In this document: positions 7,256 to 33,697 of the stretch, piece by piece
Layout of the letters: every line of letters starts with the position of its first letter
How positions within the stretch are numbered: the first letter of the stretch is position 1
Assembly: GCA_028280355.1 (NCBI GenBank)
Contig: JANQMB010000231.1
Location: 1 to 34,500, forward strand
Reading direction: 5' to 3'
From: Verrucomicrobiales bacterium
Lineage (GTDB): Bacteria; Verrucomicrobiota; Verrucomicrobiia; Verrucomicrobiales; DEV007
DNA: 34,500 bases
Notes under the pieces: generated by a model
Seen by the model: only the letters and a program-made list of their open reading frames with translations
What the model was told of the DNA's origin: nothing
Databases searched by the model: none
Position numbers and translations under genes: made by a program

Positions 7256-7627
7256 ATGCACTCGGCCACCGCAGCGGTCCTGGTCGGCATCGGCGGGTTC
7301 GCCGGTGCGGCGGCGCGCTGGGGGCTGGGCAGCTGGGTCCAGTCGTCGCTCGGCGAGGGCGTCCGCTTCCCCTACCCAACCCTCGCCGTCAACCTGCTCG
7401 GCTGCCTGGCGATCGGGATCACCTACACCCTGTGGGAGACCAACCCGGTGCTACGACTGCTGGTGACGGTCGGGTTCCTCGGCGGCTTCACCACCTTCTC
7501 CGCCTTCGGGCTGGAGACGCTGGGCCTGCTGCGCAGTGGATCCGTGGTCGGCGCGACGCTCTACGTCGGGCTGAGCGCGACGTTCGGTGTGATCCTGGTC
7601 TGGCTGGGAATCCAACTGGCGAGTTAG
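7256..7627 (+). CDS. crcB: Fluoride ion channel CrcB/FluC
   Basis: A 123-residue inner-membrane protein with four hydrophobic helices (about residues 5-24, 38-58, 66-90 and 97-120). This fits the FluC family, which works as an antiparallel dual-topology dimer exporting fluoride. The signature GFLGGFTTFSAF is at residues 73-84 and the conserved Asn of TLAVNLLG is at 46. The early GxxxGAxARW segment (about 11-22) also matches. Length is normal for the family. It has only 41 bases upstream, shared with argG; these do not resemble the fluoride riboswitch, so I see no fluoride-sensing leader. No Shine-Dalgarno is visible. Downstream, a convergent gene ends 120 bases away. Confidence 0.95.
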   Translation: MHSATAAVLVGIGGFAGAAARWGLGSWVQSSLGEGVRFPYPTLAVNLLGCLAIGITYTLWETNPVLRLLVTVGFLGGFTTFSAFGLETLGLLRSGSVVGATLYVGLSATFGVILVWLGIQLAS

Positions 7628-7635
7628 TCTAGATC

Positions 7636-7654
7636 GGCAAGCGGGGCGCTTGCC
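7636..7654. terminator. Short GC hairpin between crcB and the giant convergent gene
   Basis: A perfect 7-bp stem, GGCAAGC and GCTTGCC, around the loop GGGGC, 8 bases after the crcB stop. It lacks a T-run on either strand, so termination would be weak or Rho-assisted. The rest of 7628-7746 is AT-richer and shows nothing further. Confidence 0.35.
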
Positions 7655-7746
7655 AGATCGAACCGAACCCAAACCAGAACCAACAAAACCTAGCAGTTCT
7701 CCAAAAAAGTGCAGAAGATTCTAGACACTACCAAATTCCGCGCCCC

Positions 7747-10700
7747 CTATCCACCGGATTCGATCTTCTCGAGCATTTTCACAGCCTGGGCATGCTCGAT
7801 CTCATCGTGGGAATACCGAGCATAAATCCGAAGAGGCTTCGCCGCCTCAGCCTTGCGGTCGAGTTCGTAGAGGGCAAGCCCTCGCAGCCAGTAGAGGTGA
7901 TAGAGCGTGGGGAACCCTTCGATCGCAGTCGCACTTAGATCGGCCAGAGATTTCCAGTCGCGATTCAACAGCGCGATCTCGCAACGCGCATTCTGCGCCT
8001 GCCGTTCGTCGCCCACCTGTCTCAGATAACTTTCGAGATAGGCTTCCGGAACCAGCTCCGCCTCCCCTAGCGTCTGGGCGATTTTGAGTACGAGCCACAT
8101 CCCACTAAAGTCTTGCTCTAACCAATCACTGGTAATGATCTCTGAGATTACACTGGCCGCCTCCTCACGCGCCAACTCCTCCATATCCTCCATCCCAGCC
8201 ATTTCTAACGCGCGCAGCGACAAAGGCAACGTCGAGGCTTCGAGCAGCTCGTCCGGATCTAGAGCATCGATTGCGACCCGTAACTTCTTCTTGTCACCAG
8301 CCTTCATCAGCGATGCGAGCACTAAATTGGTCGCGCGACCAGCCAGGCGAGGGTGTTCGATCTTCGCCAGCTCGGCTTTCACATCCATCTCTCTGCCGCG
8401 CCGAATATCGCAATGCAGTTCGAAGAACTGTAGCGCCGCGGCGCTGAACGGGTGTTCCTTTGCATCGGCGAATGGTTTCGCGAGGGCAGTCAGCTTCGTC
8501 ACCACATCATCCTCATCGGTATCAAAGAAGTGACCGGCGGCGAGGATCGCAAACGAGCGTTCGAGATCATCGCCAGTCTCGCGCAACAAGGCGTCGTAGA
8601 TCTTGAGGTTGAACGCTTCATGTTCGGGACGCCCCGAAGAGATCCCTAACAGTTCCCCTCCAAATTGTGGGCTATGTAGGGGGAGAATGCCCGATTTGAA
8701 CCGGTGCGAGGCGAGAGCCAAGGAGTCTTCATATCCCAACAGCTCGGCGTCAGCGTCCCCCTTCAGCGCCTCCGAGAGGTAGCGCCCACGTTTGCCGTCC
8801 ATCGCGTCGAAGCGCTCGCTCAATATACTCGTCATAGCCTCCCGCAGCTCCACACCCTCCCTAACAGCTTTTACCTCGCGGAGCATAGACAGCCGCAATC
8901 TCGTCAGCGAAGTCTTCGCCCCAGCCTTTAGCTGCCAATCACCGACGCCCTCGCGAATCGCATCCATACGTTCGGCCTCCCCCATCAAAGCCAGCCGACT
9001 GAAAAGCAAAATCACCACACCGATTTCGAGGTCGCCAAGCGGCTCGTCCACCACCGCGCCAATGGCCACTTCGATCTCCTCGGCGGTGGAAGTGCCATGC
9101 CTTGCCAACTTCCTGTAGAAGTTTCTAATATCTTTGAGAAAGACGTTCTCGGGAGCAGGCGATGGCATCGCCAGGTAGCGATTGAGTTCGCCGACGCCCA
9201 CCTCGCGCAGCGCCTCGCCACATGCGAACAGATACATTACCCCCCTGCAATTGGGGCGCAGGCCGGGGTCATCGATCACGCCATCGAATATCTGCCGCGA
9301 TTCGTCCCACCGTTGGGCTCTAGTGCCCAGTTCATAGACAGCGTTCTCGAAGTGGCTCTCCCTCTGATCCAGAGGCAGATCAGAACTCTCCCCCCCCGCA
9401 GCCACGAGCAGCTCAAGCTTGATCCGTTCGGCATCATTTAGCCGGCTCGACTCGCCAAACGTCCTATCGAGATCCCTGACCCGCGGATCCGATAGGCCTT
9501 TAGGCAGAACGTAATCCCACCATTCCGGCCGGTTCTTGTCCATCCAACGCCCCACAGCAGCACCGAAATCATCGGAAGCCGCCCCGCTCAGGGACAGCTC
9601 CTCGTAGCGAGCTACCAGCTGCTCATGCTGCGCCTCATCCGCTTTCACCTTCGGGTGCTCGATCTCCCCCTTCAATAGCTTCTCTTCCGCCTCGCCATCG
9701 CCCAGAGCCCGGTAGACTTTCGAGAGGGAGACGACGGCGTAGGCGCGGCCGTCCTTCTCCCCATCTTCAAGGATACCCTCCAGGGCGGACTTCACCTCCT
9801 CGAGTTCTTCGCCGAGGGCCACGGCGGAGAGAGCCCAGAGACGCACCATGCCGCGACTGACAGCATCCTCATCTTCGTCAGCCCCTAAAAACTCCTCTAC
9901 GTACTCTAACATTTTCTCGTGCCAACCGAGATCGACATAGCCGACCCCCTGCCAAAGCCTCGCCTGCCGAACTACAGCGGGCTCACCGAGCTTTACTCTC
10001 TCGAGGATCTCAACGCCCATCTCACGCAAGGCCCCGGCCTCCTCCAGATCTTCCGCTTCATTGGCCAGCGAGATCAGGTAGGTGCCAAGCTGCTGCGCGG
10101 TCGACGGCAACCATCGGGCAGCGTGAGCCGTCCGATCACAGAGTTCGCCGAACCCCTCACGCTCCGGGCCGCGGAACGTCGCCCCAAAGCGCGCTCCCAA
10201 ATTGGAGAGATTCTCGAAAGTTGGCACCTCGATATGTGAGGATGATTCCTCAATGCCGTATCGTTTCCTAAATCGACACCACTCCCGCCACCAGCCGCGG
10301 GCGTCGCGCCAATAGGCGCGCGCCTTGCCGGAATCCTCGAGCAAGACCCGAATCTTCTTGGCCTGATCTTCATAGGTCATCTCCGCGACAACGCTCTCAT
10401 CGACTTCGACTAGCAATCCCCAACGTCGCAGCGCCTCAGTAGCTTTTCCTGTCTCAAGACAGACGAACCCCGCCATCACCAGCCCATCACAGACCTCCGC
10501 GTCATCGAGCCTCCCCTCCCCCTTCTTGAAGTATGATAGCGACTCGTCAAACTCACGCACCGCCACCAAGCTTGCGCCGAGATCCTCGTCGAGCGATCGC
10601 CTAAAGCTGTCCGGAAAATCCGGCGATGCTTCCATCGCCCTCAAAATTTTCAGCTCTTCGGATTCTTCTCCACGAACCCTATGATACGCGGCACGCAGGA

Positions 10701-13700
10701 ATTTGCCGTCCCAGTGGTTGTCATCGCTCACAGGGAGCCGGTCCATCGCGTCGTACAGTGATGGCAGCAGCTTGCCCCCCAACCAGCGATCATCGTCGCG
10801 CTCGTCCCACTCGACCCAGCTCGCCACGCGCCAGAGGGTTAGCGAGTAATCGTCACCGGGCTCGAAGCTTACCAGCAACTCTGTTGCGTGGCGGACGTAG
10901 GGCTTGACCTTGTCGGCCTCCCAAAGCGCCCCACACTGTTTTAGCAGCGCCGCCCTGTCGGCAAGATGCTCCTTCGATGGTGCCGTCTTGTCCCAGGCCT
11001 CATCCCGATTCGCCTCCACCACTTTCGCCAGATCGGTCCTGATGCCCTCCCAGGTGTCACGGATTCCAAAACTGTCGGCCAAACCGCGCAAGCCCGTCCG
11101 CAGGTGAACGGCGATCTCCGCCCCTTCCTCGACCGGGAGTGCCTCGAGCAATTCTGCGATCGCACCGCCACCGTCGTCTTCCCCGAGATCCCGGGCTACG
11201 GCGATCACCGCGTCGAGAACCTTAGAGAGTTCCGGGTCGCCTGCGACGACTAGCTCTGCCAGACGCGTTCCTAGTTCGCCCTCCTCCCCAAGTACGGGAG
11301 CGATTTTCGCAAGCAGCTCAAAGCATCGGATGCGGGCATCAGACTCTAGATCCAACGCTTCTCGCAATAATTTCGCCGCGCGCTCTTGCTCCTTCCGCCC
11401 CCCGCGTTTCTCCAATAGAGAGGCTGCATTATAGGAACTCCACGCACGCCGAGAATCGTAGGCACCTTGATCTCCAGCAACCTCCTCGAAGATAATCGTC
11501 GCCTCTTTCTCCTCCCCAGAGTCACGTTTGGCAAGAGCGAGCAAATAGCGCAACCAGGCGTGATCTGAAGCGGAAAGTTTACCGTCCCACTCGGCGAGCA
11601 ATGCGCTGAGTTTCTCTGCAGCTATCTCGTTGCGATCTGCGTTCCAGTCCACGAGCGCCAGCTTTGCTTTCGCATAGACGATTGTCTGCGAGTCGTCGGG
11701 GAAATACTGCAACACACGCCGCAAAGCCTCGACGCGCAGTTCCTCACTTCCGTTCTCTGGAAAACGTCGCTCGAGGAGAGCCAACTGCCCCTCACCGGTG
11801 GACAGGATTGGAAAATTCTTCAGGTCAACCACCTGAGGTACGGCAGGCGCTTCGCCCGCCCCTGCCTCTAGCAGAAGGGGCTCAGCCATCCAGCTCCGCA
11901 ACGAGCGCAGGGCATTGAACGCCGCTCCAAACTCGGCAGCCGGAACCTGCGATTTGCGGCAGTCGATCTGTAATTGGGCGCGGTATCCGTCCTCGCCATC
12001 ATGCTTCGACCACGATGCGCCTGCGCTGATCGCCGGAGATTGCACGCTGAACGGACGTGGAAGCGAGACGGGCTCTAGCCCTTCGGGAAAAACAACCCTA
12101 GCATCCACCACTATCACATCCCTCCACATGTAGAATGGAGCCTTGCGATCGCGTTCGTCACCGAGATGAACCAGCAGCCCATCGGAGAACGGGAAGGAGA
12201 ACCCGCCCCGCGTATCGTCGTTCGCCGCAGCCGGGGGCACCACGAAGTAGGCTTTCAATTCATAGCGATCCACGGCATCCCCGTGCCCCTCCGCCTTCTC
12301 GACATCAACCACCTCCGCAGCCGGGAAGAAGCCATTGATGATATCTGCCAATCCGGATACAACCCGCTGCCGATCACGCTTGGCATAGCTATCGGCATAG
12401 CTACACGCATAGTATCCTTCAGCCACCAATGTCATCCATCCCGAGAGCCCGCCAGCGCGGTCGCGCTCGATATCAAATCGGTGAGAAAGGCGCCCGGCGG
12501 ACTGGGCCGGAGTTCGCGCCCACTCGGCCGCCTCCCCCTTTATCAGCAGCACATCGCGATCGGCGTCGCTGGGCGACAACAGTCCAGGTTTGGAATACTC
12601 GACAGTGGGATCACAGAACACATAGCCGTCACTCTGCTCGATCGCGAGAATAGCGTGGTTAAAATGCCGGTGACTGGGCGACCGTTTCTCAACTTGGCCA
12701 GCGTGCCTCGTATTCACAAGCGTCAGGTACGAACGGATCCCCTTGTGGGCCAACATCGCGCGCAACAAGTTCGACTTGTCCTTGCAGTCGCCGTAGCGGT
12801 TCTCCCAAACCTCGTTGCAGTCATACGGCTGGAGCCCCGCCTGACCAAACTCCAGCCCCGTATAACGCACCTCGTTTGCCACCTTCGACAAGAGGAGGGC
12901 AAGGATCTCCCCCTCGTCCTCGATACCCTCTGTCCATCCTTCGACCTTCGCTGCCAGATCTTCTCCAATCTCGAACCTGTCCTCAATCAGACCGTTGTAC
13001 CAGCGCGCGAAGGCGTCCCAATCGGGTAGCGTGGACAACCAGACCGTCGGCGCCGTGAACTTAGAAGAAGGGCTCGACGGCTCGTACTTTTCCCCGCCAA
13101 CCCTCGCTCTCTCCCAACTCAGACGGACGCGGTCGCCCTCAAGTTCGTCGCGCTGCATTGCTGGCACCCTCCGACTACTGGATACTGCCCGCAGACGCTT
13201 CTCCATCTTCGTCGGCACATCGATCAACCTGCGCTTCGTTAAAATTGGCCAGCGAGCCCCCCAACTCATTGACGTACAAAACTCCCCGGCGATCGGGAAT
13301 CGATCCTCCTCGATGACGACTACGGCTTCAGTTACCGATCCAGGATCGACCTCAGGAAACACCAGGATCAACTCCGCGTCATCCGAGTAGAGAGATGCCC
13401 CTGCATCCCGCTGGGGAACCCGGATGATCGCCGCGTTGTCCTTGATCGGCAATGTCCGGCCATCTGCAGTCCGAGTTTGAGCCTTCGCGAGATGGATCCG
13501 CTGGGTCTTCTGACGATAGTAGTAGGTGTCCTCCGCGATCGCTTTCGCCCCGCCCTCCGTGAGAGCCTTGAACACATAGCGGATTACTTGGACGCGACGC
13601 CCCTCTTCATCGATATGGTTCAGAACCTCGTTCAACAAAACGACGCCGCCAAACGCCTCATCCATCGCGGCCTGCTCAAAATCCTCTGCGGGCTTAAGAA

Positions 13701-13875
13701 CGTCGTCGATGGGGGTGAGCAGTGCCTCTAGCCTTTCCCCATAGATAGCCGGCGGTGTACGTGACACCCCCTGCTGCTGGGCACCAGATGGCGACCCGAT
13801 CACCGGGAGAATCCCGGCAATGAGAAAGAGCAACCGATGGGGGTGAGAGCGATCTAGGCGGTGGCGACGCTTCAT
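7747..13875 (-). CDS. Giant secreted DUF3857 / transglutaminase-like protein with long helical-repeat region
   Basis: A 2042-residue protein. A signal peptide is at about residues 1-32 (RLLFLIAGILPVIGSPSGA). A DUF3857-like beta region (about 60-260) is followed by a transglutaminase core (about 280-430) with an intact-looking triad: Cys364 in RYGDCKDKSNLLRAML, His407 in HFNHAIL and Asp422 in VFCDPT. A further beta segment extends to about residue 680 (DUF3857-like proteins often end this way). The remaining 1350 residues are helical, Glu/Leu/Ala-rich and tetratricopeptide-like; the clearest unit is the last one, LYHLYWLRGLALYELDRKAE. Typical family members are about 600-1200 residues, so this one is unusually long. 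Its DNA is clearly less GC-rich than its flanks. It starts 77 bases after tpiA on the same strand. An AGGA lies 8-11 bases before the ATG. The substrate is unknown; a periplasmic or outer-membrane peptide cross-linking or hydrolysing role is inferred. Confidence 0.9.
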   Translation of the reverse strand: MKRRHRLDRSHPHRLLFLIAGILPVIGSPSGAQQQGVSRTPPAIYGERLEALLTPIDDVLKPAEDFEQAAMDEAFGGVVLLNEVLNHIDEEGRRVQVIRYVFKALTEGGAKAIAEDTYYYRQKTQRIHLAKAQTRTADGRTLPIKDNAAIIRVPQRDAGASLYSDDAELILVFPEVDPGSVTEAVVVIEEDRFPIAGEFCTSMSWGARWPILTKRRLIDVPTKMEKRLRAVSSSRRVPAMQRDELEGDRVRLSWERARVGGEKYEPSSPSSKFTAPTVWLSTLPDWDAFARWYNGLIEDRFEIGEDLAAKVEGWTEGIEDEGEILALLLSKVANEVRYTGLEFGQAGLQPYDCNEVWENRYGDCKDKSNLLRAMLAHKGIRSYLTLVNTRHAGQVEKRSPSHRHFNHAILAIEQSDGYVFCDPTVEYSKPGLLSPSDADRDVLLIKGEAAEWARTPAQSAGRLSHRFDIERDRAGGLSGWMTLVAEGYYACSYADSYAKRDRQRVVSGLADIINGFFPAAEVVDVEKAEGHGDAVDRYELKAYFVVPPAAANDDTRGGFSFPFSDGLLVHLGDERDRKAPFYMWRDVIVVDARVVFPEGLEPVSLPRPFSVQSPAISAGASWSKHDGEDGYRAQLQIDCRKSQVPAAEFGAAFNALRSLRSWMAEPLLLEAGAGEAPAVPQVVDLKNFPILSTGEGQLALLERRFPENGSEELRVEALRRVLQYFPDDSQTIVYAKAKLALVDWNADRNEIAAEKLSALLAEWDGKLSASDHAWLRYLLALAKRDSGEEKEATIIFEEVAGDQGAYDSRRAWSSYNAASLLEKRGGRKEQERAAKLLREALDLESDARIRCFELLAKIAPVLGEEGELGTRLAELVVAGDPELSKVLDAVIAVARDLGEDDGGGAIAELLEALPVEEGAEIAVHLRTGLRGLADSFGIRDTWEGIRTDLAKVVEANRDEAWDKTAPSKEHLADRAALLKQCGALWEADKVKPYVRHATELLVSFEPGDDYSLTLWRVASWVEWDERDDDRWLGGKLLPSLYDAMDRLPVSDDNHWDGKFLRAAYHRVRGEESEELKILRAMEASPDFPDSFRRSLDEDLGASLVAVREFDESLSYFKKGEGRLDDAEVCDGLVMAGFVCLETGKATEALRRWGLLVEVDESVVAEMTYEDQAKKIRVLLEDSGKARAYWRDARGWWREWCRFRKRYGIEESSSHIEVPTFENLSNLGARFGATFRGPEREGFGELCDRTAHAARWLPSTAQQLGTYLISLANEAEDLEEAGALREMGVEILERVKLGEPAVVRQARLWQGVGYVDLGWHEKMLEYVEEFLGADEDEDAVSRGMVRLWALSAVALGEELEEVKSALEGILEDGEKDGRAYAVVSLSKVYRALGDGEAEEKLLKGEIEHPKVKADEAQHEQLVARYEELSLSGAASDDFGAAVGRWMDKNRPEWWDYVLPKGLSDPRVRDLDRTFGESSRLNDAERIKLELLVAAGGESSDLPLDQRESHFENAVYELGTRAQRWDESRQIFDGVIDDPGLRPNCRGVMYLFACGEALREVGVGELNRYLAMPSPAPENVFLKDIRNFYRKLARHGTSTAEEIEVAIGAVVDEPLGDLEIGVVILLFSRLALMGEAERMDAIREGVGDWQLKAGAKTSLTRLRLSMLREVKAVREGVELREAMTSILSERFDAMDGKRGRYLSEALKGDADAELLGYEDSLALASHRFKSGILPLHSPQFGGELLGISSGRPEHEAFNLKIYDALLRETGDDLERSFAILAAGHFFDTDEDDVVTKLTALAKPFADAKEHPFSAAALQFFELHCDIRRGREMDVKAELAKIEHPRLAGRATNLVLASLMKAGDKKKLRVAIDALDPDELLEASTLPLSLRALEMAGMEDMEELAREEAASVISEIITSDWLEQDFSGMWLVLKIAQTLGEAELVPEAYLESYLRQVGDERQAQNARCEIALLNRDWKSLADLSATAIEGFPTLYHLYWLRGLALYELDRKAEAAKPLRIYARYSHDEIEHAQAVKMLEKIESGG

Positions 13876-13952
13876 CGCCGCGGATCCTAATTGACGAACC
13901 TCAAGAACGCCAGCGCAGAAGCGCTGCCGCCAATCCTACTCTTCCTTAAAGC

Positions 13953-14714
13953 CTACCCCGCGTTCTTGCAGATCTCCGAGAAGCTCCCGGGCTCCAGGCT
14001 GGCGCCGCCGACGAGCGCGCCATCGACGTCGGGCTGCGCCATCAACTCGGCGGTGTTGGCCGGTTTGACGCTGCCGCCGTATTGGATGCGGATCTTCGCT
14101 GCCACCTCCTCGCCGAAGAGCTCGCCGAGCACCTTGCGCACGAAGGCGTGGGCTTCCTGCGCCTCGTCTGGGCCGGCGGTCTTGCCAGTGCCGATCGCCC
14201 AGACGGGCTCGTAGGCGATCACCGCCTCGGCCATCTTGTCGGCGGATAGCCCCTCGAGCCCCACCTCCAGTTGGCGGCGCAAAACCGCCTCCAGCTGACC
14301 GCCCTCCCGCTCCTCGAGCGTCTCGCCAATGCAGATGATCGGCTTCACCCCCGCCGCGTGCAGCGCCTTCGCCTTGGCGTTGATGATCGCGTCGTCCTCA
14401 CCGAAGATCGACCGGCGCTCGCTGTGGCCGATAATGACATAATCGACGCCGATCTCGGTCAGCATCCCGATGCTGACCTCGCCGGTGAAGGCGCCCTTCT
14501 CTTCGAAATGGCAGTTCTGAGCCGCGAGCCCCGTCGTGTCGCTGTTGGCGAGCGCCCCCTTGGCCGCCCCGAGGGCGACGAAAGCCGGCGAGATCACGAT
14601 GTCGACGGCGCTGCTGCCACCGATGAGGTTCTCGAACTCGTCGATGAACTCGGTCGCCTCGGCGGGACCTTTGTGCATTTTCCAGTTGGCGGCGATGATC
14701 GGTCTTCGGGACAT
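13953..14714 (-). CDS. tpiA: Triosephosphate isomerase
   Basis: A 253-residue cytoplasmic enzyme interconverting dihydroxyacetone phosphate and glyceraldehyde 3-phosphate. All catalytic residues are visible: Lys12 in ANWKMHKG, His97 in IIGHSERR and Glu169 in AYEPVWAIGTGKTA. The phosphate-binding end YGGSVKPANTAEL and the GALVGGASL motif are present. Length is standard. It follows pgk by 49 bases on the same strand, so it is the third gene of a gap-pgk-tpiA set covering the triose-phosphate steps of glycolysis. No Shine-Dalgarno is visible (an AAAGAG lies just before the ATG). Confidence 0.98.
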   Translation of the reverse strand: MSRRPIIAANWKMHKGPAEATEFIDEFENLIGGSSAVDIVISPAFVALGAAKGALANSDTTGLAAQNCHFEEKGAFTGEVSIGMLTEIGVDYVIIGHSERRSIFGEDDAIINAKAKALHAAGVKPIICIGETLEEREGGQLEAVLRRQLEVGLEGLSADKMAEAVIAYEPVWAIGTGKTAGPDEAQEAHAFVRKVLGELFGEEVAAKIRIQYGGSVKPANTAELMAQPDVDGALVGGASLEPGSFSEICKNAG

Positions 14715-23532: not shown

Positions 23533-26466
23533 CTATTCGAACTCCGGCGGCACCTGCTGTCCCTCCTCAAGGAACTGGTCGACGTGATCGGAGAAGATCC
23601 TGCGCAGCTTGGCGAAGTCCTCGGCGTACTCCGGGTCGTTGATGCCCTCCTTGAAGCGGATCCCGCCGACCCTGGCGAGGTGGAAGGCCTTCTCCGTCTC
23701 CCCCGCTGCCAACTGCAGCTCGGCGCTGCGGGAGGTGGCGGGGATCGAGTACTCGTAGTACTGCGGGTATTTCCCGATGTTCTGCAGGTAGGCGCTGAGC
23801 GCCTCCTTGACCCGGCCGCGCTTGTCGCGGGCGGTGGCCAGGCTGAACCACGCCTCCGGGCTGTTGGCGCGCCAGGACTTGTTGGAGACGTAGGCGAACC
23901 AGGCGTCCTCCGCCTCCGTCCACTTGCCCTGCTTGCTGAGGTACCGCGCCCGTTCGTAGGCGGACTCCTCGGTGAGCTTGGTGTTGCCGGAATTGGCGAC
24001 GACCCATTCGGAGTACTCGAGCCCCTTCGCGTCGTTGCCAGCACCCGCGTCGCGGAAGTAGATCTTCGCCAGCGCGTTGTAGGCGTAGTCCTTCGAGTCG
24101 ATGCCGGGCCGGCCGAGGATCTCCTCGAACCAGGCCACAGACTGCGGGGTCTGTCCGCCGGCGCGCAAGAAGTCGCCGATCCGCGCCAGCACGTATGGCG
24201 CCAGCTGCTTCTTGTCGAAACCCCTGAGCTCGTTGAAGGCGGTTCGGATCGCGGCGGTCTTCTGCGCCCCGTCCTCGAACTCCTTCTCGATGATGTCGAT
24301 GCGCGACACAAGCAGCCAGGCCTGCACGGCGTCCGGCTGGCCGCCCTTGGTCGCCATGTCCTTGAGGCGCTGGATGGTGGCCTCGGCCCCGTTCAGCTCG
24401 ACCGAGACGTCGCCGTATTTGGCGATCGCCTTCTCGAGGTCGGCGTTCTCCTGCCTCCCGAGGCGGTCGATCATGTCCTCCATCTTGTCGAGCCCCTCCT
24501 GGCCGCGGCCGACACTCTCTTCGACCAGCGCCTCGAGGGCGCTGGCGACCACCTGCGGCTCCAGGTAGTTCTCGGCGAAGTCCCGCGTGAACTCGTCGTA
24601 GTAGGCGGCGGCGCCCTCGAAGTTCTCCAGGGCGATGGCGACGGGGACCAGTTGGCTGAGCGCCTCGGCGGCGACCTGGTAGTGGCCCTCGGACTCGGCG
24701 CGGGCCTTGCCCTTCTTGTAGGACTCCTCGGCGGCGGCCCACTCCTTCTTCGCCTGCAGGACGTCGCCGCGCAGGTTGAGGCTGCGGTCGTAGATCGGGG
24801 CGTCGGGGTAGCGCTGCTCGATCTCGTCGAGCTTCACCAGGCAGTCGTCCAGCTCGTCCATGGCGAAATGGCACGTCGCCCGGTCGAGGATGGCGAAGGC
24901 CCTCAGCGAGGAGTCGGGGTACTTGCCCAGCCAGGCCTCGAGCAGCGGCGCGGCGGTCGCCCACTCGAGGAGCTTCACCTTGTTCGCCCCGTGGTAGTAG
25001 CTGGACTCCTCGAGGAAGGCGCTCTCGGGATACTTCTCGGCGTGCTGGTCGAGCAGCGGGTCGGCGTTCTCATACTGGCCGTCGTAGTAGTAGGAGCCGC
25101 CGAGGCAGAACAGGCAGAGGTCGTGCTGCAGCGACCCAGGCGGGAGCTTCGGGAGGATGTCTGAGGCGATCTTGATGCAGCGCTCGTAGTCGCCGCGGCG
25201 GAACAGCTGCTCCATCAGCATGCTCTGCACCTCCGGCTCGAGGTCGTGCCCGGGGTACTTCTTCAGGAAGATCATCCCGTGGTGCTGGGCGGAGAGCAGG
25301 TCGCCGAAGGAGAACGCGCAGCGGGTGGCGTTGTAGAGGATCTCCGGGTGGATCGGCGTCTTGACCTCCTTGCCGTCCACCTTCTCCACGCTCACCGCGG
25401 TCGGGAACCGGCGGGACATGTAGTCGTGGACCGCGTAGGCGGCGCGGAAGCTGCCGTTCTTCTCGTAGATGTAGGCGAGCAGGCGCAGGCCGGGGATGTC
25501 CACCGCCGTGCCGCCGTCGATGGTGGCCTGCAGCTTGTCGATCTCGCCCTGCACCTTTTTCTTCTGCGAATCGTTCTGGTAGAAAGCCTTGCGGTCCTGG
25601 AGCTCGGTGATGGCATCCTCGGTGCGGGGCGTCAGGGTGAAGAAGCGCAGGGCCAGCGCGTCGAGGTTGTCCTCCCCGCCGGAGGCCTCCTGCGCGAGCT
25701 TGAGGAAACGCTTGTTGAAGCTGTATTTGAAGCTGTCGAAGGGGGAGAACCGCAGCAGGCCGTCGTTCTTGTCCATGAACGACAGGGCGTCCTTCACCAT
25801 CGCCTTCTCGACCCACTGGTCGCAGAGGTCGAAGAAGGCCTTGTGCAGGAAGTACTTCTCGCGCGTGTTGAGCTGCGCGTGCGCGTCGTAGACCTTCTGG
25901 ATGTAGCCGGTGGCCTCGGCGACCTTGCCGAGCCTGGCGTGGCAGACCCCGAGGTTGGTGTAGAGCTCCGCCACCGAGTAGGTGCCGCGCTCCGGCTTCT
26001 CGCTGAGGAACTTGTTGTACAGCTTGATCGCCCCCTCGTATTCCTCGGCGCCCTGCTCCGCCCTGCCCCAGTGGTAGAGGGCGAGCAGGTGGTAGTGGTT
26101 GCGGGTCGGCGGGGTCGTCTTCGCCTTCGCCGGCGGGATCTTGTTGGGGAACTTCTTGAAGGTGATCTCGAACTGCGCGGCCGCCTCCTTGTATTTCTTG
26201 AGCTGCATCTGGCACAGCCCGAGGTGGTAGTGGATCAGGCCGAAGGCGGGACCGTAGATGTCGAACGGCTGCGCCGAGCCGTAGTCGTTGACGACCGACT
26301 GTAGCACCGAGGCCGCGTCGGCCCACTTGGCGTCCTCCATGAGTTGGACAGCCTTCCGGTAGTTGTCTTCGACGGGGTTCTGCGCGACGGCGGCACCGGC
26401 CGAGAGCAGCAGCGAGACGGCGGCGGCGAGGGCGCGGAGCGATAGCGTGGGGGGGGGGGTATTCAT
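23533..26466 (-). CDS. Large periplasmic tetratricopeptide-repeat protein
   Basis: A 977-residue protein with a signal peptide (about 1-28, ALAAAVSLLLSAGAAVAQ) and TPR units along almost its whole length. Clear examples are RKAVQLMEDAKWADAASVL, GLCQMQLKKYKEAAAQFE, AIKLYNKFLSEKPE, LGGSYYYDGQYENADPLL and DVLQAKKEWAAAEESYKK. Many repeats show the A-x-x-x-F/Y-x-x-x-x-x-x-x-P/Y-P pattern of YbgF/CpoB- and BamD-like envelope TPRs. It lies directly downstream of the two ExbD genes (183 bases from the nearer) and before the 345-residue partner, so it is probably the periplasmic effector of that proton-driven complex. Eleven consecutive C cover codons 3-6, just after the ATG; a one-base change there would knock out or re-frame the product. 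The gene may also have its own promoter near 26509. Confidence 0.93.
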   Translation of the reverse strand: MNTPPPTLSLRALAAAVSLLLSAGAAVAQNPVEDNYRKAVQLMEDAKWADAASVLQSVVNDYGSAQPFDIYGPAFGLIHYHLGLCQMQLKKYKEAAAQFEITFKKFPNKIPPAKAKTTPPTRNHYHLLALYHWGRAEQGAEEYEGAIKLYNKFLSEKPERGTYSVAELYTNLGVCHARLGKVAEATGYIQKVYDAHAQLNTREKYFLHKAFFDLCDQWVEKAMVKDALSFMDKNDGLLRFSPFDSFKYSFNKRFLKLAQEASGGEDNLDALALRFFTLTPRTEDAITELQDRKAFYQNDSQKKKVQGEIDKLQATIDGGTAVDIPGLRLLAYIYEKNGSFRAAYAVHDYMSRRFPTAVSVEKVDGKEVKTPIHPEILYNATRCAFSFGDLLSAQHHGMIFLKKYPGHDLEPEVQSMLMEQLFRRGDYERCIKIASDILPKLPPGSLQHDLCLFCLGGSYYYDGQYENADPLLDQHAEKYPESAFLEESSYYHGANKVKLLEWATAAPLLEAWLGKYPDSSLRAFAILDRATCHFAMDELDDCLVKLDEIEQRYPDAPIYDRSLNLRGDVLQAKKEWAAAEESYKKGKARAESEGHYQVAAEALSQLVPVAIALENFEGAAAYYDEFTRDFAENYLEPQVVASALEALVEESVGRGQEGLDKMEDMIDRLGRQENADLEKAIAKYGDVSVELNGAEATIQRLKDMATKGGQPDAVQAWLLVSRIDIIEKEFEDGAQKTAAIRTAFNELRGFDKKQLAPYVLARIGDFLRAGGQTPQSVAWFEEILGRPGIDSKDYAYNALAKIYFRDAGAGNDAKGLEYSEWVVANSGNTKLTEESAYERARYLSKQGKWTEAEDAWFAYVSNKSWRANSPEAWFSLATARDKRGRVKEALSAYLQNIGKYPQYYEYSIPATSRSAELQLAAGETEKAFHLARVGGIRFKEGINDPEYAEDFAKLRRIFSDHVDQFLEEGQQVPPEFE
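26449..26459 (-). repeat. 11-base C homopolymer just after the start codon of the TPR gene
   Basis: On the coding (minus) strand, ATG AAT A is followed by 11 C in a row and then ACG. It encodes the end of Thr3 and Pro4-Pro6. Tracts of this length in the first codons are the usual signature of slipped-strand phase-variable genes, but they are also common sites of sequencing error. Confidence 0.9.
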
Positions 26467-26508
26467 GGGACTTCGGTCTGTGAGGGTTACCGATGGTGAG
26501 GGTTGAAG

Positions 26509-26537
26509 AATATAGGCTCGCCAGCCTCTGATCGGAA
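26509..26537 (-). promoter_or_regulatory. Possible promoter of the large TPR gene
   Basis: A good -10, TATATT (26514-26509), stands 17 bases after a poor -35, TTCCGA (26537-26532). Transcription would start near 26502, about 36 bases before the ATG. The remainder of the 183-base gap shows no gene. Confidence 0.35.
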
Positions 26538-26649
26538 ACCGAAAACCCCGGCGGGCACCGGCCTCTCAGAACTTCCTGGCTACCTGAAACAACGTCCGGG
26601 AACGTGGGCTGTTAGGCGTCGGGGCCTCTCCGCTTCCATCTCGGGGGGG

Positions 26650-27117
26650 TCAGCCCTCCTCGTCGCGGAAGCCGGTCATCGTGATGTTGTTGATCTTCAC
26701 CGAGGCGAGGGCGTTGACGACGTCGATGAAACGCTGCGTCTTGCCGTCGTCGGAGGCGGCGACGATAACCATCGGCGTGTTGCCGGTGCTGTTGGCCAGC
26801 TCCTTGTATTCCTTGAGGCGGTCGCGCAGCGGCTGGAGCTTGTCGGGCTTGCCGGAGTTCGATGGCCCCGAGATCGGCTGGCCGTCGTAGGTGATGCTGC
26901 CGTCGGCCTCGACCTTGATGGCGACCGGGTCGACCGGGTCGGGGTTGTCGGTCGGTATCTGGGTCGGGAGGACGATCTTGAGGTCGGTCTCCTCCTTGCG
27001 CAGGGTCGAGGTGACGAGGAAGTAGATGAGCAGCAGGAAGCTGACGTCGATCAGCGACGAGATGTCGAGCTCGGGGTCCTTGTCCTTCTCGGGGGCGTAT
27101 TTGGCTCTGCGTGGCAT
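26650..27117 (-). CDS. ExbD/TolR-family protein (second copy)
   Basis: A 155-residue inner-membrane protein with a short cytoplasmic end, one transmembrane helix (about residues 21-40) and a periplasmic domain. In ExbD/TolR proteins this helix carries a proton-linked Asp, seen here as Asp24 in LIDVSFLLLIYFLV. The periplasmic part has the family strands IVLPTQ, IKVEADGSITYDGQPI and MVIVAASDDGKTQRFIDVVNAL. The start is MPRRAKYAPE. It follows the first ExbD by 7 bases, so both are co-translated. Compared with that copy the helix lacks the Pro before the Asp (SLID in place of PMID), so the two are not interchangeable duplicates and may form a heteromer. Confidence 0.95.
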   Translation of the reverse strand: MPRRAKYAPEKDKDPELDISSLIDVSFLLLIYFLVTSTLRKEETDLKIVLPTQIPTDNPDPVDPVAIKVEADGSITYDGQPISGPSNSGKPDKLQPLRDRLKEYKELANSTGNTPMVIVAASDDGKTQRFIDVVNALASVKINNITMTGFRDEEG

Positions 27118-27124
27118 GGGGGTG

Positions 27125-27574
27125 TTAGCGGTCGGTCTTGAACGAGCCGAACACGACGCTGTTGACGCCCCCGTTCGCCGCGGCCTTGGTGACCTTCTTC
27201 ACGTCCCGCACCGAGGCGTCCCGGTGGGCGCGCAGGAGCAGGGTGGCTTTGACGTCGCGCTGCTCCATCTTCTCGCGGAAGTTGTTCACCCGTTCGGTGA
27301 TCTCCTCCTCGGTGACGGTGATGCTGCCGTCCCCAAAGGTGAAGGTGCCGTCGGCGCGGATGTTGAAGATGATGCGCCCCTTGACGTCGTCCGGGCGGTT
27401 CGACTCGTCGGCGACCGGGGGCTTGATGTTCTCGTCCACCCGCACGGTGATCATGCGGGAGGCCACCATGAAGAAGATGAGCAGCAGGAAGACCATGTCG
27501 ATCATCGGCGACATGTCCATCTTGGCGTCATCTTCCGCCCGTTTGAGGACGGCGCTGAGTTTCGCTGATGCCAT
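27125..27574 (-). CDS. ExbD/TolR-family protein (first copy)
   Basis: A 149-residue protein of the same layout: cytoplasmic end, transmembrane helix about 20-40 with Asp26 in SPMIDMVFLLLIFFMV, and a periplasmic domain with IIFNIRADGTFTFGDGSI and ATLLLRAHRDASVRDVKKV. The PMID form is the classic ExbD/TolR motif. The ATG at 27574 (MASAKL) is preferred over a GTG at 27604 that would add ten residues. It starts 79 bases after the ExbB/TolQ-like gene. The pair of ExbDs would sit inside the ExbB pore and convert proton flow into motion of a periplasmic partner; no TonB or TolA gene is visible, so the TPR proteins are the likely partners. Confidence 0.95.
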   Translation of the reverse strand: MASAKLSAVLKRAEDDAKMDMSPMIDMVFLLLIFFMVASRMITVRVDENIKPPVADESNRPDDVKGRIIFNIRADGTFTFGDGSITVTEEEITERVNNFREKMEQRDVKATLLLRAHRDASVRDVKKVTKAAANGGVNSVVFGSFKTDR

Positions 27575-27653
27575 CGGTGGAAGTTTGATTGGCCCCGCCA
27601 CCACCCCCGGGGCCAGGCCGCGGGCGGATGGGGGCCTGTTATGGGTCTCCCCC

Positions 27654-28484
27654 CTAGCCTGCCTGGAGCCCCTCGGGGACCTTGGCCATCGCCTGGTCGG
27701 CGTTCACCGCCTGGTAGCTGGCGTCGAGCATGTCCGAGGAGTCGAGGTGGCAAGCTGCGACGAGGCCGTTGAAGCGGTTGCGCAGCAGGAAGTAGAAGAA
27801 GATCGAGGGGATGGCGATGACCAGCCCGCTCAGCGTGGTGACCATCGCGAGGCCGATGTCGCCGGCGAGCGAGGACGGGTCGGCCTGCCCTTCGGCGGCC
27901 AGCGTGTTGAACGCGCCCATCATACCGGCGACGGTGCCGAGCAGTCCGAGCATCGGGGCGATCTGGCCGATGACGCCGAGGTAGCCGATCCACGTCATGT
28001 GCGAGGGGTTCTCGCGGACGGTGAACTCGGCGATGGCGTCCTCGACCTGCTCCCGGCCGAGGGTCTCGGGGTCGGTGGCGTCGACGTGGGGCAGGGCGTT
28101 GGCCATCAGGCGGCCGAGGTAGGTCGGGCTGGTCGACGACACCTCGATGGCGCTGCGGACGCGACAGTTCGCCATGTGGTCGAGCAGGGCGAGCTTGAGG
28201 TCGTCCGGGTTGAACTTGGTTTTGGTGAGCTGGATGAAGTTATAGACGATGAGCGCCACCATCGCGATCGACGCGATATAGAGCGGCACCATCCACAGCC
28301 CGGCGTCCATCAGGTTGTCGAACGCGGTGGCCTTCTCCTTCGCGTCGCCGCCGTCGTCCTTGTCCTGCGCGAGCACCTCGGGGGCGGTGTAGAAAAGGAA
28401 CAGCAGCCCCCCGGCGAGCAAGACGAAGAGCGCCAGCTGCCGGCGGAATTGGGTTCGACGGAGGAGATTGGAGGGTTGGATCAT
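27654..28484 (-). CDS. MotA/TolQ/ExbB proton channel family protein
   Basis: A 276-residue inner-membrane protein. Residues 12-40 are a hydrophobic leader ending VLAQ, an added N-terminal signal-like helix not found in short ExbB proteins. The three family helices follow at about 62-86 (WMVPLYIASIAMVALIVYNF), 163-195 (with APMLGLLGTVAGMMGAF, the pore motif) and 207-235 (GLAMVTTLSGLVIAIPSIFF). The conserved Thr residues of the last two helices are present. The start ATG at 28484 gives MIQPSN; the upstream extension is unlike the family. It opens the channel-ExbD-ExbD set, preceded by a 228-base leader region with a stable hairpin. With the two ExbDs it forms the motor part of the block. Confidence 0.96.
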   Translation of the reverse strand: MIQPSNLLRRTQFRRQLALFVLLAGGLLFLFYTAPEVLAQDKDDGGDAKEKATAFDNLMDAGLWMVPLYIASIAMVALIVYNFIQLTKTKFNPDDLKLALLDHMANCRVRSAIEVSSTSPTYLGRLMANALPHVDATDPETLGREQVEDAIAEFTVRENPSHMTWIGYLGVIGQIAPMLGLLGTVAGMMGAFNTLAAEGQADPSSLAGDIGLAMVTTLSGLVIAIPSIFFYFLLRNRFNGLVAACHLDSSDMLDASYQAVNADQAMAKVPEGLQAG

Positions 28485-28535
28485 CGATTTTTGGGTTCTT
28501 GAAAAGGCTGATTGCTGCCTCCCCAGACGATGCCC

Positions 28536-28553
28536 AAGCCGCATAAGCGGCTT
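28536..28553 (-). promoter_or_regulatory. Hairpin in the leader of the proton-channel gene
   Basis: AAGCCGC and GCGGCTT form a perfect 7-bp stem with a TTAT loop (minus strand), 52 bases before the channel start. It has no T-run, so it is more likely a leader structure than a terminator of the upstream gene. The rest of 28485-28712 shows no gene. Confidence 0.4.
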
Positions 28554-28712
28554 TCAGGAACGTAGGGGGTTTGCGCAAAGAGCCGCTGATTTAGCATGGA
28601 AAGAACACCTTTACAACGCTTTTTGTCCGCACCTCTTAGCCGCGCCACCCCGGGTCACCACCAGGCGCCATCCGACCCCCAACCTGACTAGCATACAGCC
28701 CCCAGCGCCCCG

Positions 28713-29837
28713 CTATTTCGACTCCCCGAGCGCCGCCATCACAGGCTCGAGCAGTTCCTCGGCAACCTGGCGGCAGCCGGCGTCGGTCAGGAGGATCTCG
28801 CTGAGGAACGAATCGGCGTAGCGCGGGATCTCGCCCTGGAGGTTGACCCACCCCACCCCGGCCGCCTCGCACCTCGCCTTCGCCGCCCTGTAGAAACGGT
28901 TCAGCTCCGTCTCCATGACCAGCGGGGGGAGCCGCACCCCGCTGCGCTTGCCCTGGACCGGCGCGGTGGGGTACCAGGGCTCGGTGAGCCGCTTCGCCTC
29001 GGCCGGGCCGAGGGTGGACTTATAGATCGTCGGCTCCCCGACCACCAGCAGCTTGGCGCCGCGCTTGCCGGCGAGTTCGACAAGGCCGTCCAGCCCGAGC
29101 AGGTACTCCTCGAGCGGGTCGTCACCGGTGCGCACGATACGCTGGGCCATCGGGCGCTGGGAGTAGTTGTAGTTCATGGTCGCCAGGTAGTTGCGATAGA
29201 AGTTAGGCTCGGCGAGCCGCGCCTGGAGGGAGCGCTGTGAGCGGGCGCGCCTCCAGTTGCGCACGATGCGCAGCAGGTGGGAGGCTTTGGCGAGCTGGTA
29301 TTTCCACCCCGGCGGCTCCGCCTCCCGCATGCGCTGGAGCGCCCCCGGGTCGAAACGGTAATCGCCGTATTTCCCGATGGCGTCACCGAACCCGAAAGAG
29401 GCGATGATGAGGTCCACATCGTACTTGTCGGTGACCTTCTCCGCCCGGACGAGCCCGGAGAGGATCCCGCCCCCCTGGAGATCGGCCAGGGCCGCGACCT
29501 CGACCTTCTTCCCGGACGCCTCGGCGATCCCGGAGGCCAACAGCCCCCACCAGGTGTCGGGCGCGGACTGCAGCAACAAAGTCGTCCCACCCCCACCCAC
29601 ACAGAGGATGCGCAGGTTCTCCGAACGCCGCTTGCCCGACCAGCCGACCTTCCGCAACAGGTCACCGTCGTAGCGGAAATCGACGCTCGATTTGATCCCC
29701 TTCAGGTCGTTGGTGAACACCAGCCTCCCGGAGGGCTCCATCGGGACGGGGAAGGCGAAGCGGACGATGAGCTCCGCCAGCAGCAGCAGCGCGGCCGCAA
29801 CGCCGCCGAGGATCAACAGGATTTTGACAGGTCTCAT
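28713..29837 (-). CDS. Membrane-anchored SGNH/GDSL-like protein lacking catalytic residues
   Basis: A 374-residue protein with an N-terminal membrane anchor (residues 4-28: VKILLILGGVAAALLLLAEL). The fold signature of SGNH hydrolases is visible: the first strand and loop RILCVGGGGTTLLLQS, where active members read GGSTT, then TWWGLLASGI, a DVDLIIASFGFGD block (usually carrying the Gly/Asn of the oxyanion hole), and a C-terminal LLTDAGCRQVAEELL that in active members is preceded by D-x-x-H. Here the catalytic Ser is Gly (residue 83 or 84) and the Asp/His pair is missing (SEILLTD). The fold is thus kept while hydrolysis is probably lost. It lies 54 bases after the three-repeat secreted gene and before the proton-channel gene. 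Role unknown; a binding function is inferred. Confidence 0.75.
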   Translation of the reverse strand: MRPVKILLILGGVAAALLLLAELIVRFAFPVPMEPSGRLVFTNDLKGIKSSVDFRYDGDLLRKVGWSGKRRSENLRILCVGGGGTTLLLQSAPDTWWGLLASGIAEASGKKVEVAALADLQGGGILSGLVRAEKVTDKYDVDLIIASFGFGDAIGKYGDYRFDPGALQRMREAEPPGWKYQLAKASHLLRIVRNWRRARSQRSLQARLAEPNFYRNYLATMNYNYSQRPMAQRIVRTGDDPLEEYLLGLDGLVELAGKRGAKLLVVGEPTIYKSTLGPAEAKRLTEPWYPTAPVQGKRSGVRLPPLVMETELNRFYRAAKARCEAAGVGWVNLQGEIPRYADSFLSEILLTDAGCRQVAEELLEPVMAALGESK

Positions 29838-29891
29838 TGGGGTCGCAGCCGGTTAGGCGCTCGAGTATAGGGGGACCGGACCAGGAATCAA

Positions 29892-31235
29892 TCACCCGCG
29901 TGGCGCCGCCCCGGCACCCTTGATGGTGAAACGCAGCACCGTCAACAGACGCCCGTCGACGGAGACCCGGACTTTGTAATGCCCCTCGTCCCAGGGCGTC
30001 CCGGGCGGTGCCGGGGCGAACGAGTGCCTCCGGCTGGCGGTCTTCCAGGAGGGCTGGATGGTGAAGTCGCCGGCCGATTCTGCCAGGGTTCCCCCGCCCG
30101 GCCCCACCCACTCCCAGGCGACCTTGTGGCTATGCTCGGTGGTGTAGTTGGGGTTGTTCACCACCACGATCTCCGCCCACAGATCGCCGGTGTCCCCCGG
30201 GTCGAAAACCTCCAGATACTCCCGGCGCGCGCCGCCGGGGGCGGCCGCGGCCTCCCCCCCATCGCCGGCGGGGTAGACGCCCGCGTCGAGCAAGCCGTAA
30301 TGCACGACCCTCGGACGCGTGCGCGGCTTGGTCAGAGGGTCGGTGACGACGAAATGCCGCTCGGCGATCACCCGGTTGTCCTGCTCGAGCTCGAAACGGT
30401 ACCGGCCGGGCTCCCAGTTGCCTGCCGCCTGCCAACCGACGCCCTCGACGAGGACCACCTCCTCCACCTCCGGCGCCACGACGCTGGTGCTGGCCGCGGC
30501 GGCCATCAGCGATCCGTCCGGGCGGTAGTAGTAACCGACGATGTTCGGCCGCTGCGCGCGCACGTTGTGAAGCCGGTTCCTGGCGCGCACCACCCAGTAG
30601 ATCCGGCGCGCCCGCGAGCGGGCGAAACTGGTGCCCGGCCTCTTCGTGATGCCCGGCCTGAAAAAATCGCCCCCCTCGTAGAAGGCGAGCGACTCGATCT
30701 CCAGCTCGTCGATGCCAGGTTCGATCGCCGCCTCCCCGTCGTGGATGTAGAACGCCGCCTCCCCGACCTTCTCGCCCTCCAGCCAGACCTTCACCCGGTA
30801 GGTGCCGACGTCCCACTTGCCGCTCTCCGGCCACCCGAAACTCTGTGAGGTCCAGGTGTACTTCCAGTCCGGCGGCACGACGATGGACCTCTCGTGGGCG
30901 CTGATCAGCTGTCCCTTGAAGGTGTAGAGCCCGACCACCACGCTGTAGTCGTACTCGTTGTCGCCGAGCCGCAGGTTCTTGAACACCGTCTGCGCCGAGA
31001 TGTATCCCGCGGAGCCCTTCTCGAAATCGCGGCGGTACTCGACGCCCGCGACCCCCTCCCCCGAAGCCTGAGGTCCCTTCGTCCCGGCCCCGGCGTGAAA
31101 CTGGATAGCGTGGAACGCGAGGCCGGCCTCCCCCCCACCGTCGGCACCGGCCGAAGAGACCGCCGGGGCGAGGGCCGACACCGCAGCCAGGGCGGCCAGG
31201 GCAAATGCCCGTGGAATCTCGATCGCGGAGGTCAT
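29892..31235 (-). CDS. Secreted three-repeat beta-sandwich protein
   Basis: A 447-residue protein with a signal peptide (about 1-30, ending VSSAGA). Three tandem units of about 130-140 residues each end in the same pattern, W-x-x-G-x-Y-x-V/F, a turn, then F-x-I/V: SGKWDVGTYRVKVWL (Trp141), AGNWEPGRYRFELEQ (Trp274) and GTPWDEGHYKVRVSV (Trp415). Each begins with a conserved surface strand (LAFHAIQFH, IESLAFYEG, VVHYGLLDAG). This is an Ig-like beta repeat as seen in surface and adhesion proteins. No enzyme motif is visible. It lies divergently from the FHA-MoxR gene and 54 bases before the SGNH-like gene. I cannot name a family; a ligand-, protein- or sugar-binding role outside the cytoplasm is likely. 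Confidence 0.8.
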   Translation of the reverse strand: MTSAIEIPRAFALAALAAVSALAPAVSSAGADGGGEAGLAFHAIQFHAGAGTKGPQASGEGVAGVEYRRDFEKGSAGYISAQTVFKNLRLGDNEYDYSVVVGLYTFKGQLISAHERSIVVPPDWKYTWTSQSFGWPESGKWDVGTYRVKVWLEGEKVGEAAFYIHDGEAAIEPGIDELEIESLAFYEGGDFFRPGITKRPGTSFARSRARRIYWVVRARNRLHNVRAQRPNIVGYYYRPDGSLMAAAASTSVVAPEVEEVVLVEGVGWQAAGNWEPGRYRFELEQDNRVIAERHFVVTDPLTKPRTRPRVVHYGLLDAGVYPAGDGGEAAAAPGGARREYLEVFDPGDTGDLWAEIVVVNNPNYTTEHSHKVAWEWVGPGGGTLAESAGDFTIQPSWKTASRRHSFAPAPPGTPWDEGHYKVRVSVDGRLLTVLRFTIKGAGAAPRG

Positions 31236-31328: not shown

Positions 31329-32681
31329 ATGCCAAGCATCCTCTTCACCAAGGGTCCACTCCTCGACCAGAGCTACCCGCTCGGCGACTCCGGGCTGACC
31401 ATCGGCCGCATCGAGGGCTGCGACATCCGCCTCGAGGACGACACCCGGGTCTCCGGCCGCCACGCCGAGATCCGCCAGGGCGAGGGGGGCTGGTGGGTGT
31501 TCGACCTCGGCAGCTCGAACGGCACCAGGCTCAACGGACAGACCGTCGAGTCGAGCGCCCTCGGGGCCGGGGACTACGTGTCGATCGGCGAATCGGCCTT
31601 CCAGTTCCAGGGCGAAGGCGGGGAGATCGACGGGGCCCCCGTGGCAGAACAGGCCGACGACGACGACCCGGCCGAAGCGGGCGACGACGCCGAGCTGGTG
31701 GCCGAGCTCAACCGCGCCTATACCGAGATGAAGGCGGCGCTCGGGAAGGTCATCGTCGGCCAGGAGGAGGTCATCGAGCAGATGCTGATCGCCATCTTCT
31801 GCCGCGGCCACGCCCTGCTCATCGGCGTGCCCGGGCTGGCGAAGACGCTGCTGGTGAGCACCCTCAGCAGGGTGCTCGACCTGGGCTACAAGCGGGTGCA
31901 GTTCACGCCGGACCTGATGCCCGCCGACATCACCGGCACCGAGGTGCTGGAGGAGGACCAGTCGACCGGCGCGCGCAGTTTCCGCTTCGTGAGGGGGCCG
32001 ATGTTCGCCAACATGGTGCTCGCCGACGAGATCAACCGGACCCCGCCGAAGACGCAGGCCGCCCTCCTCGAGGCGATGCAGGAACACCACATCACGGTCG
32101 GCGACACCACATACGACCTGCCGGAACCGTTCTTCGTGCTCGCCACCCAGAACCCGATCGAGCAGGAGGGGACCTATCCCCTGCCCGAGGCCCAGCTCGA
32201 CCGCTTCATGTTCAACATCGTCGTCGGGTACCCCAGCGCCGAGGACGAACAGCGCATCGTCAAGCAGGTGACCGGGACCTACCGGGCCGAGATCGAGGCC
32301 TCGCTCGACGCCGGCGACGTCCTCAAGCTGCAGGAGGTGGTGCGCAGGGTACCGGTCGCCGACCACGTGGTCGAGTTCGCCACCGCGCTGGCGCGCGCCT
32401 CGCGCCCGGGGGAGGAAGGCGCGCCGGACTTCGTGCGCGAGATGGTCGGCTGGGGCGCCGGGCCGCGGGCCGGGATCAACCTGATCGCCGCCGCCAAGGC
32501 CCGCGCTGTGCTGCGGGGCCGCTACCACTGCACCACCGCCGACGTGAGGGCCGTCGCCGCCCCCGTCCTGCGCCACCGCATCATCACCACCTTCAACGCC
32601 GAGGCCGCGGGGGTCACCAGCGACGAGGTCATCCGCATGCTGCTCGAACACGTCGGGGCCTCGCACGACGTGGAGGTATAA
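31329..32681 (+). CDS. FHA domain - MoxR AAA+ ATPase fusion
   Basis: A 450-residue cytoplasmic protein. Residues 1-95 are an FHA domain: [15 protein letters not shown], then RVSGRHAEI and [13 protein letters not shown] (26-70), which binds phosphothreonine. An acidic linker (about 108-124) joins it to a MoxR-type AAA+ ATPase: VIVGQEEVI, Walker A GVPGLAKT (166-173), Walker B VLADEINR (230-237), sensor 1 ATQNP (272-276) and the arginine-finger region LDRF (290-293). The usual lid ([14 protein letters not shown]) and C-terminal VLRHRI are present. MoxR ATPases work with VWA-domain proteins to mature or load protein complexes, and the next two genes encode such partners. The start is the first ATG after a divergent gap of 93 bases; no Shine-Dalgarno. 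MoxR proteins usually lack an FHA domain, so phosphorylation control is inferred. Confidence 0.96.
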
Positions 32682-32705
32682 TTTCCTAACAAAGACACCT
32701 TAGAG

Positions 32706-33638: not shown

Positions 33639-33657
33639 CCGCCCGACACGCCAACCC

Positions 33658-33677
33658 GGCGCCCCGGGGGCGGCGCC
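33658..33677. repeat. GC-rich inverted repeat between the DUF58 and BatA-type genes
   Basis: GGCGCC repeats at each end of a 20-base stretch and can pair with itself around CCGGGGGC. It fills part of the 59-base gap. With no T-run and a gene immediately downstream, its role, if any, would be mRNA processing or slowing. Confidence 0.3.
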
Positions 33678-33697
33678 CACCGCAAGCCCGATAGCCG

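Follow-up and report, generated by a model that had tools for sequence, protein, structure and literature searches.

A gene encoding a 2042-residue DUF3857-transglutaminase-like-TPR protein lies between crcB and tpi in a Verrucomicrobiales genome, within a stretch of 34,500 nucleotides at the start of contig JANQMB010000231.1 (the window; its own genome is denoted G000). The gene is probably a horizontally acquired single-gene insertion. Of the two origins that an initial annotation of this DNA had offered for the composition of the gene, relaxed codon choice is disfavoured. Horizontal gain is supported, because the crcB-tpi site is empty in four relatives and because the mismatch with the host in codon usage and in GC content at third codon positions (GC3) far exceeds that in 18 relatives. 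If so, a very long single gene entered a stretch of conserved housekeeping genes; no mobile element was found next to it, and the empty sites serve as a control. The case also points to a 2,000-residue enzyme-scaffold family in Verrucomicrobiota, the scaffold half of which lives alone by lptE and rsmI.

The crcB-tpi site in relatives

The order argG-crcB-tpi-pgk-gap-M16 in genomes G014, G031, G016 and G030 is the order of the window without the gene, and at these four empty sites crcB and tpi are 21 to about 80 bases apart; the crcB-tpi order is kept in these four alone among the 20 regions compared. No homologue of the gene was found in any of 20 pgk regions (3.9-13 kb each, E 1e-8) taken from 56 genomes with pgk; the G005 region ends inside pgk. 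In G011, a close genome by PGK (79%), neither crcB nor argG follows tpi, and argG is on a different contig.

Deletion of an ancestral gene from this site in G014, G031, G016 and G030 would overlap with descent as a resident gene (considered below). Losses are likely in general in so patchy a family: of 74 genomes from the bacterial family of the host, 6 have the fused form, with enzyme head and helical scaffold in one protein (E up to 1e-40; in G148 split over two contigs). Deletion leaves the composition of the gene unexplained, however, and all four empty sites have short spacers, and we regard it as improbable. Still more improbable is an assembly chimera, that is, a 6-kb piece of another organism joined into the contig. 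The genome is a draft in 370 contigs, but both sides of the gene are collinear with the relatives, exactly one gene with its spacers lies between them, and entry and exit would both have been needed at intergenic points.

Composition and codon usage

The lower GC of the gene had been read from two 60-base samples, one from the gene and one from an FHA-MoxR gene, with 28 and 48 G/C. These counts are exact, yet the samples are extreme ones, as 60-mers average 35.5 in the gene and 40.4 in the rest of the window. The difference itself is real: 1-kb windows have a GC of 0.575-0.605 inside the gene and 0.637-0.717 clear of it, and GC3 is 0.68 in the gene compared with 0.90 in sampled host genes (standard deviation 0.047, n = 140; GC 0.685). 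For the host set, a simple script with a home-made codon model called the 140 genes, all of >200 amino acids (aa), in the window and in 20 contigs. The composition step coincides with the gene borders, GC3 being 0.91 in crcB and 0.90 in tpi and GC 0.51 and 0.57 in the two spacers, and GC3 is 0.63-0.72 across seven successive segments of the gene. Among 110 open reading frames (ORFs) of >=300 aa, taken longest-first and without the codon model from 259 kb of this genome, two have a lower total GC, both in one island of locus L043.

Under host codon usage the gene has a log-likelihood of -1.381 per codon, and thus fits the host worse than every one of the 140 host genes scored (mean -0.824, standard deviation 0.135, minimum -1.223). 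Ranked by codon fit, the host is 29th of 35 genomes; 28 of the 34 other genomes suit the gene better. The GC3 of the gene minus that of its host is -0.215 in this genome and -0.110 to +0.073 in 18 relatives (mean -0.030; the G148 row, a wrong ORF, was omitted), host GC3 in this comparison resting on 3 to 15 genes per genome except in G000 and G005. Low GC is hardly a trait of the fused family.

Other stretches of the same genome differ in composition as well. The island L043:3031-6328 has a GC of about 0.48 and includes a Dyp-type peroxidase gene, and low GC is also seen at L044:17501-20000 and L051:17501-20000 (1-kb windows of 0.49-0.53 and 0.58-0.61). An RHS-repeat protein of 2155 aa (L053:3099-9566, minus strand) has a GC3 of 0.81.

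Nearest homologue and donor

The nearest homologue (62% identity) is in G005, which belongs to the bacterial family of the window's genome and whose sampled genome has a GC of 0.603 and a GC3 of 0.76. Because G005 is nearest by PGK and also carries this homologue, and because its copy differs from that of G000 at fourfold sites at least as much as other shared genes do, vertical descent followed by a move is possible: a resident gene from the G000-G005 ancestor would have moved within the genome and, under relaxed codon choice, been left behind while the genome rose to a GC3 of 0.90. That the fused family averages slightly below host GC3 (mean -0.03) fits such a history. We nevertheless consider it unlikely. 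G000 and G005 are close to saturated at fourfold sites, and a resident gene therefore had time to reach host composition; the paralogue on contig C335 has a GC3 of 0.92 and a partial DUF3857 gene on C165 one of 0.87; and the site is empty in four relatives. Gain from a lineage of ~60% GC outside the sample is favoured, since in the same period resident genes of the host would have come to a GC3 near 0.9, and the composition likewise points to a donor lineage with GC near 60%. The initial annotation had named as contrary evidence homologues of the same length and the same lower GC at this place in all relatives. The length is shared, but the place and the GC are not, in view of the empty sites and the host-like GC3 of the relatives' genes.

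G005 is not the immediate donor, because fourfold sites of the two copies agree little more than chance; a recent transfer from G005 itself was rejected on this divergence. Downstream of the G005 copy 199 bases are visible (the upstream side is cut off) and hold no crcB match, which weakly suggests another location, and an open tail in this downstream flank matches nothing among the loci compared. With G018 and the head-only rows set aside, the fused proteins of G000, G005, G020 and G125 form one side of a tree branch with support 76. A transfer at this deep level is not claimed, because the branch neither shows nor rejects it and the deep forks of the trees give no firm order. Donor searches with six short patterns in genome contigs returned only L002, and viral contigs gave nothing; 21 plasmid records match, none covering 80% of the query, and the ten listed cover <=27%, all in the head.

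Several points weigh against horizontal gain. G005 is the closest genome by PGK among the 57 searched (80 and 84%, in two pieces), and the excess identity of the G000 and G005 copies at fourfold sites is 0.09, with 0.096-0.24 in other shared genes. No donor was found, the whole genomes searched giving nothing nearer than G005. There is no integrase or transposase among the neighbouring genes searched with Pfam, no tRNA gene in the window and no flanking repeat, the longest word shared by the junctions being 8 bases and inverted. With its low-GC stretches elsewhere, the genome has further foreign-looking pieces. The host set, being picked by a codon model, under-represents odd genes, the host samples of the relatives are small, as given above, and the draft genome (370 contigs) is 85.6% complete.

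Protein architecture and catalytic triad

The protein begins with a probable signal peptide followed by DUF3857, a transglutaminase-like core, a second beta-rich stretch and a long helical solenoid (Table 1). In the window protein the Transglut_core family PF01841 matches residues 313-397 with 18.3 bits, below the cut-off of 23; among the aligned members, window protein included, both DUF3857 and Transglut_core match in 17/17 (E up to 0.01). A 12-sequence profile matches the solved chain 3kd4 at positions 110-378 (E 2.7e-9). The triad C364, H407 and D422, proposed earlier as intact, is so: the three residues are as described and identical in all 27 aligned rows (25 fused, including the window protein, and two head-only), with C364 in the motif YGDCKDKS.

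The estimate of about 1350 helical residues was also about right, helices starting near residue 645 in low-confidence models. The model of residues 930-2042 is all-helical, with a mean predicted local distance difference test score (pLDDT) of 47.6 (low confidence); this model and that of the second beta-rich stretch are poor because they were made with the window protein and L002 only. TPR proteins are matched by a profile built from 17 full-length sequences, that of the window protein among them. Pfam TPR families reach at best 10.9 bits in the window protein (cut-off 35) and are found in up to 9/17 members. A Mul1B match was rejected (13.3 bits, cut-off 75), and the Pfam and NCBIfam hits include no dedicated model of a fused transglutaminase-TPR family.

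A length-conserved fused family

The protein had been thought exceptionally long, a view that the length distribution contradicts: 20 of the 24 other fused homologues aligned span 2,012-2,098 aa, and homologues of similar length come from several families of the phylum, so that the length is not odd. Of the other four rows, two have 2,283 and 1,703 aa, one has 1,885 aa because its contig ends inside it, and one has 1,328 aa because the sequence retrieved stops short of its open frame of 2,016. The alignment and the trees exclude three homologues: that of G148, which lies in two pieces on different contigs, that of G149, with an open frame of 1,684, and the truncated one of G337. To judge from these sequences, the window protein is an ordinary-sized member of an unnamed, length-conserved family. 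Besides its occurrence in the bacterial family (above), the fused form is found in 12 genomes, that of the window among them, out of 387 sampled from the phylum (E up to 1e-40); both counts are lower bounds, few candidates per genome having been scored.

No neighbour family is common to more than three of the 20 fused loci compared, among which the G148 locus was wrongly picked and the G005 contig shows no neighbours; the exception is the close pair G133 and G157, with most neighbours in common. Head-only proteins of ~1,300 aa occur alongside the fused form in two genomes (L068:5739-9614 and L067:6396-10313); they are DUF3857-transglutaminase proteins, with Pfam run on the first only. A literature search for the fused transglutaminase-TPR family gave nothing, and DUF3857 is named in one paper among 5.39 million open-licence PubMed Central papers.

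The C-terminal module as a separate protein

The last 1,100 residues occur as a separate protein in 13 of the 74 genomes of the bacterial family, this one included. The stand-alone proteins have 1141-1203 aa, some being cut by contig ends (L035, L057-L061, L063-L065), and align to residues about 940-2040 with 22-30% identity. The copy in the window's own genome (L035:7067-10492, minus strand, on C335) is the paralogue with host-like GC3 and is truncated where the contig stops. A conserved order of TPR/YfiO-like gene, lptE, rsmI and module is found in G024, G016, G031, G014, G190, G155, G203 and G228; in G011 rsmI is seen next to the module before the contig ends. Thus rsmI lies directly upstream of the module in nine of 11 genomes with that side visible; in G007 and G002 the TPR/YfiO-like gene, lptE and rsmI were not found near it, and in G000, in G030 and, outside the bacterial family, in G039 this side is cut by a contig end.

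In a module tree seven stand-alone proteins from the bacterial family form a group with the proteins of the window and of G005 (SH-like approximate likelihood ratio test 98, quick method). Fused and stand-alone forms interleave, and the well-supported branches force at least three changes between them. The tree is unrooted and has long branches, and the G528 row fills 37% of its columns; owing to the long branches and the lack of a known root it does not give the direction of change (fusion or loss of the head). We tentatively suggest, with rather more doubt than confidence, that the 1,100-residue module serves by itself as a scaffold in envelope biogenesis, with a link to lptE and rsmI, that its enzyme head was repeatedly acquired or lost, and that a fused copy was re-imported into a genome that keeps a headless one. 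One cell would then have 'enzyme-armed' and 'unarmed' versions of the same scaffold. Of these findings, the scaffold that occurs both split and fused most deserves to be followed up.

Features of the locus and neighbouring genes

The hairpin beside crcB was considered as a mobile repeat and rejected, since it occurs once in the genome, and scans for promoters and terminators gave no more than shuffled sequences did. Farther along the window, a minus-strand row at 23533-31235 comprises genes for a TPR protein (977 aa), ExbD, a 160-aa product and ExbB, together with two genes for which Pfam gives no match over the cut-off; it looks like an energised TolQR-type cluster. At 31329-34500 (plus strand) lie genes for an FHA-MoxR ATPase and a DUF58 protein and a BatA/VWA gene running off the contig end.

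Table 1. Features of the gene, its product and its probable insertion site in the window
Feature	Position	Strand	Evidence or remarks
crcB, left flank	7256..7627	+	Pfam PF02537; same place in G014, G031, G016 and G030
Left junction, GC 0.51, hairpin core 7637-7653	7628..7746		Sequence
Whole gene, 2042-aa DUF3857-transglutaminase-like-TPR protein	7747..13875	-	Open frame; GC 0.591, GC3 0.68
Helical TPR-like solenoid, about residues 645-2042	7750..11943	-	All-helical model and TPR profile matches
C-terminal module, about residues 937-2042, also encoded separately in relatives and on contig C335	7750..11067	-	Sequence comparison
Second beta-rich stretch, about residues 455-640	11956..12513	-	Secondary structure in a model of mean pLDDT 40.6 (low confidence)
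Transglutaminase-like core, residues 313-422, with C364, H407, D422	12610..12939	-	PF01841 below cut-off, triad, 3kd4 profile match
DUF3857 domain, residues 92-257	13105..13602	-	Pfam PF12969, 78.8 bits (cut-off 24.6); also detected in a DNA-level search
Probable Sec signal peptide, about residues 1-33	13777..13875	-	By eye from translation
Right junction, 77 bases, tpi stop to start codon of the gene	13876..13952		Sequence
tpi, right flank; end of the gap-pgk-tpi run, which lies upstream of the gene and has its orientation	13953..14714	-	Pfam; collinear in relatives

Proposed function and comparison with known systems

The domain content suggests an exported enzyme, either a cysteine protease or an acyltransferase, borne by a scaffold. 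The gene, 77 bases behind gap-pgk-tpi and in the same direction, may be co-transcribed from the glycolytic run, and its product would be secreted into the envelope. There the solenoid could hold a protein partner, either selecting the substrate or anchoring it in the envelope, and C364 would form a thioester with the partner and then cleave or cross-link it, the sequence being compatible with either outcome. According to PMC6341742, lolA has a DUF3857 gene next to it in Xanthomonas, a neighbourhood that fits an envelope role only loosely.

The closest known counterparts are DUF3857 and Transglut_core proteins such as 3kd4 (deposited as 'Putative protease'), which share the domain order and the Cys-His-Asp triad; the window protein differs in adding ~1,400 helical residues. 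The triad is likewise shared with the transglutaminase-like cysteine protease superfamily (LapG, NATs, vasohibins), in which the substrate is attacked by a cysteine thiolate with histidine and aspartate in support (PMC4866520), and thiolate chemistry is expected for the window protein also. TPR solenoids (consensus TPRs, LapB, MamA) resemble it through profile matches over single stretches, but its repeats are too divergent for Pfam. The stand-alone module proteins are like residues ~940-2040 of the window protein and differ in having no enzyme head; unlike the window gene, they have rsmI upstream in nine cases and, in this genome, a host-like composition.

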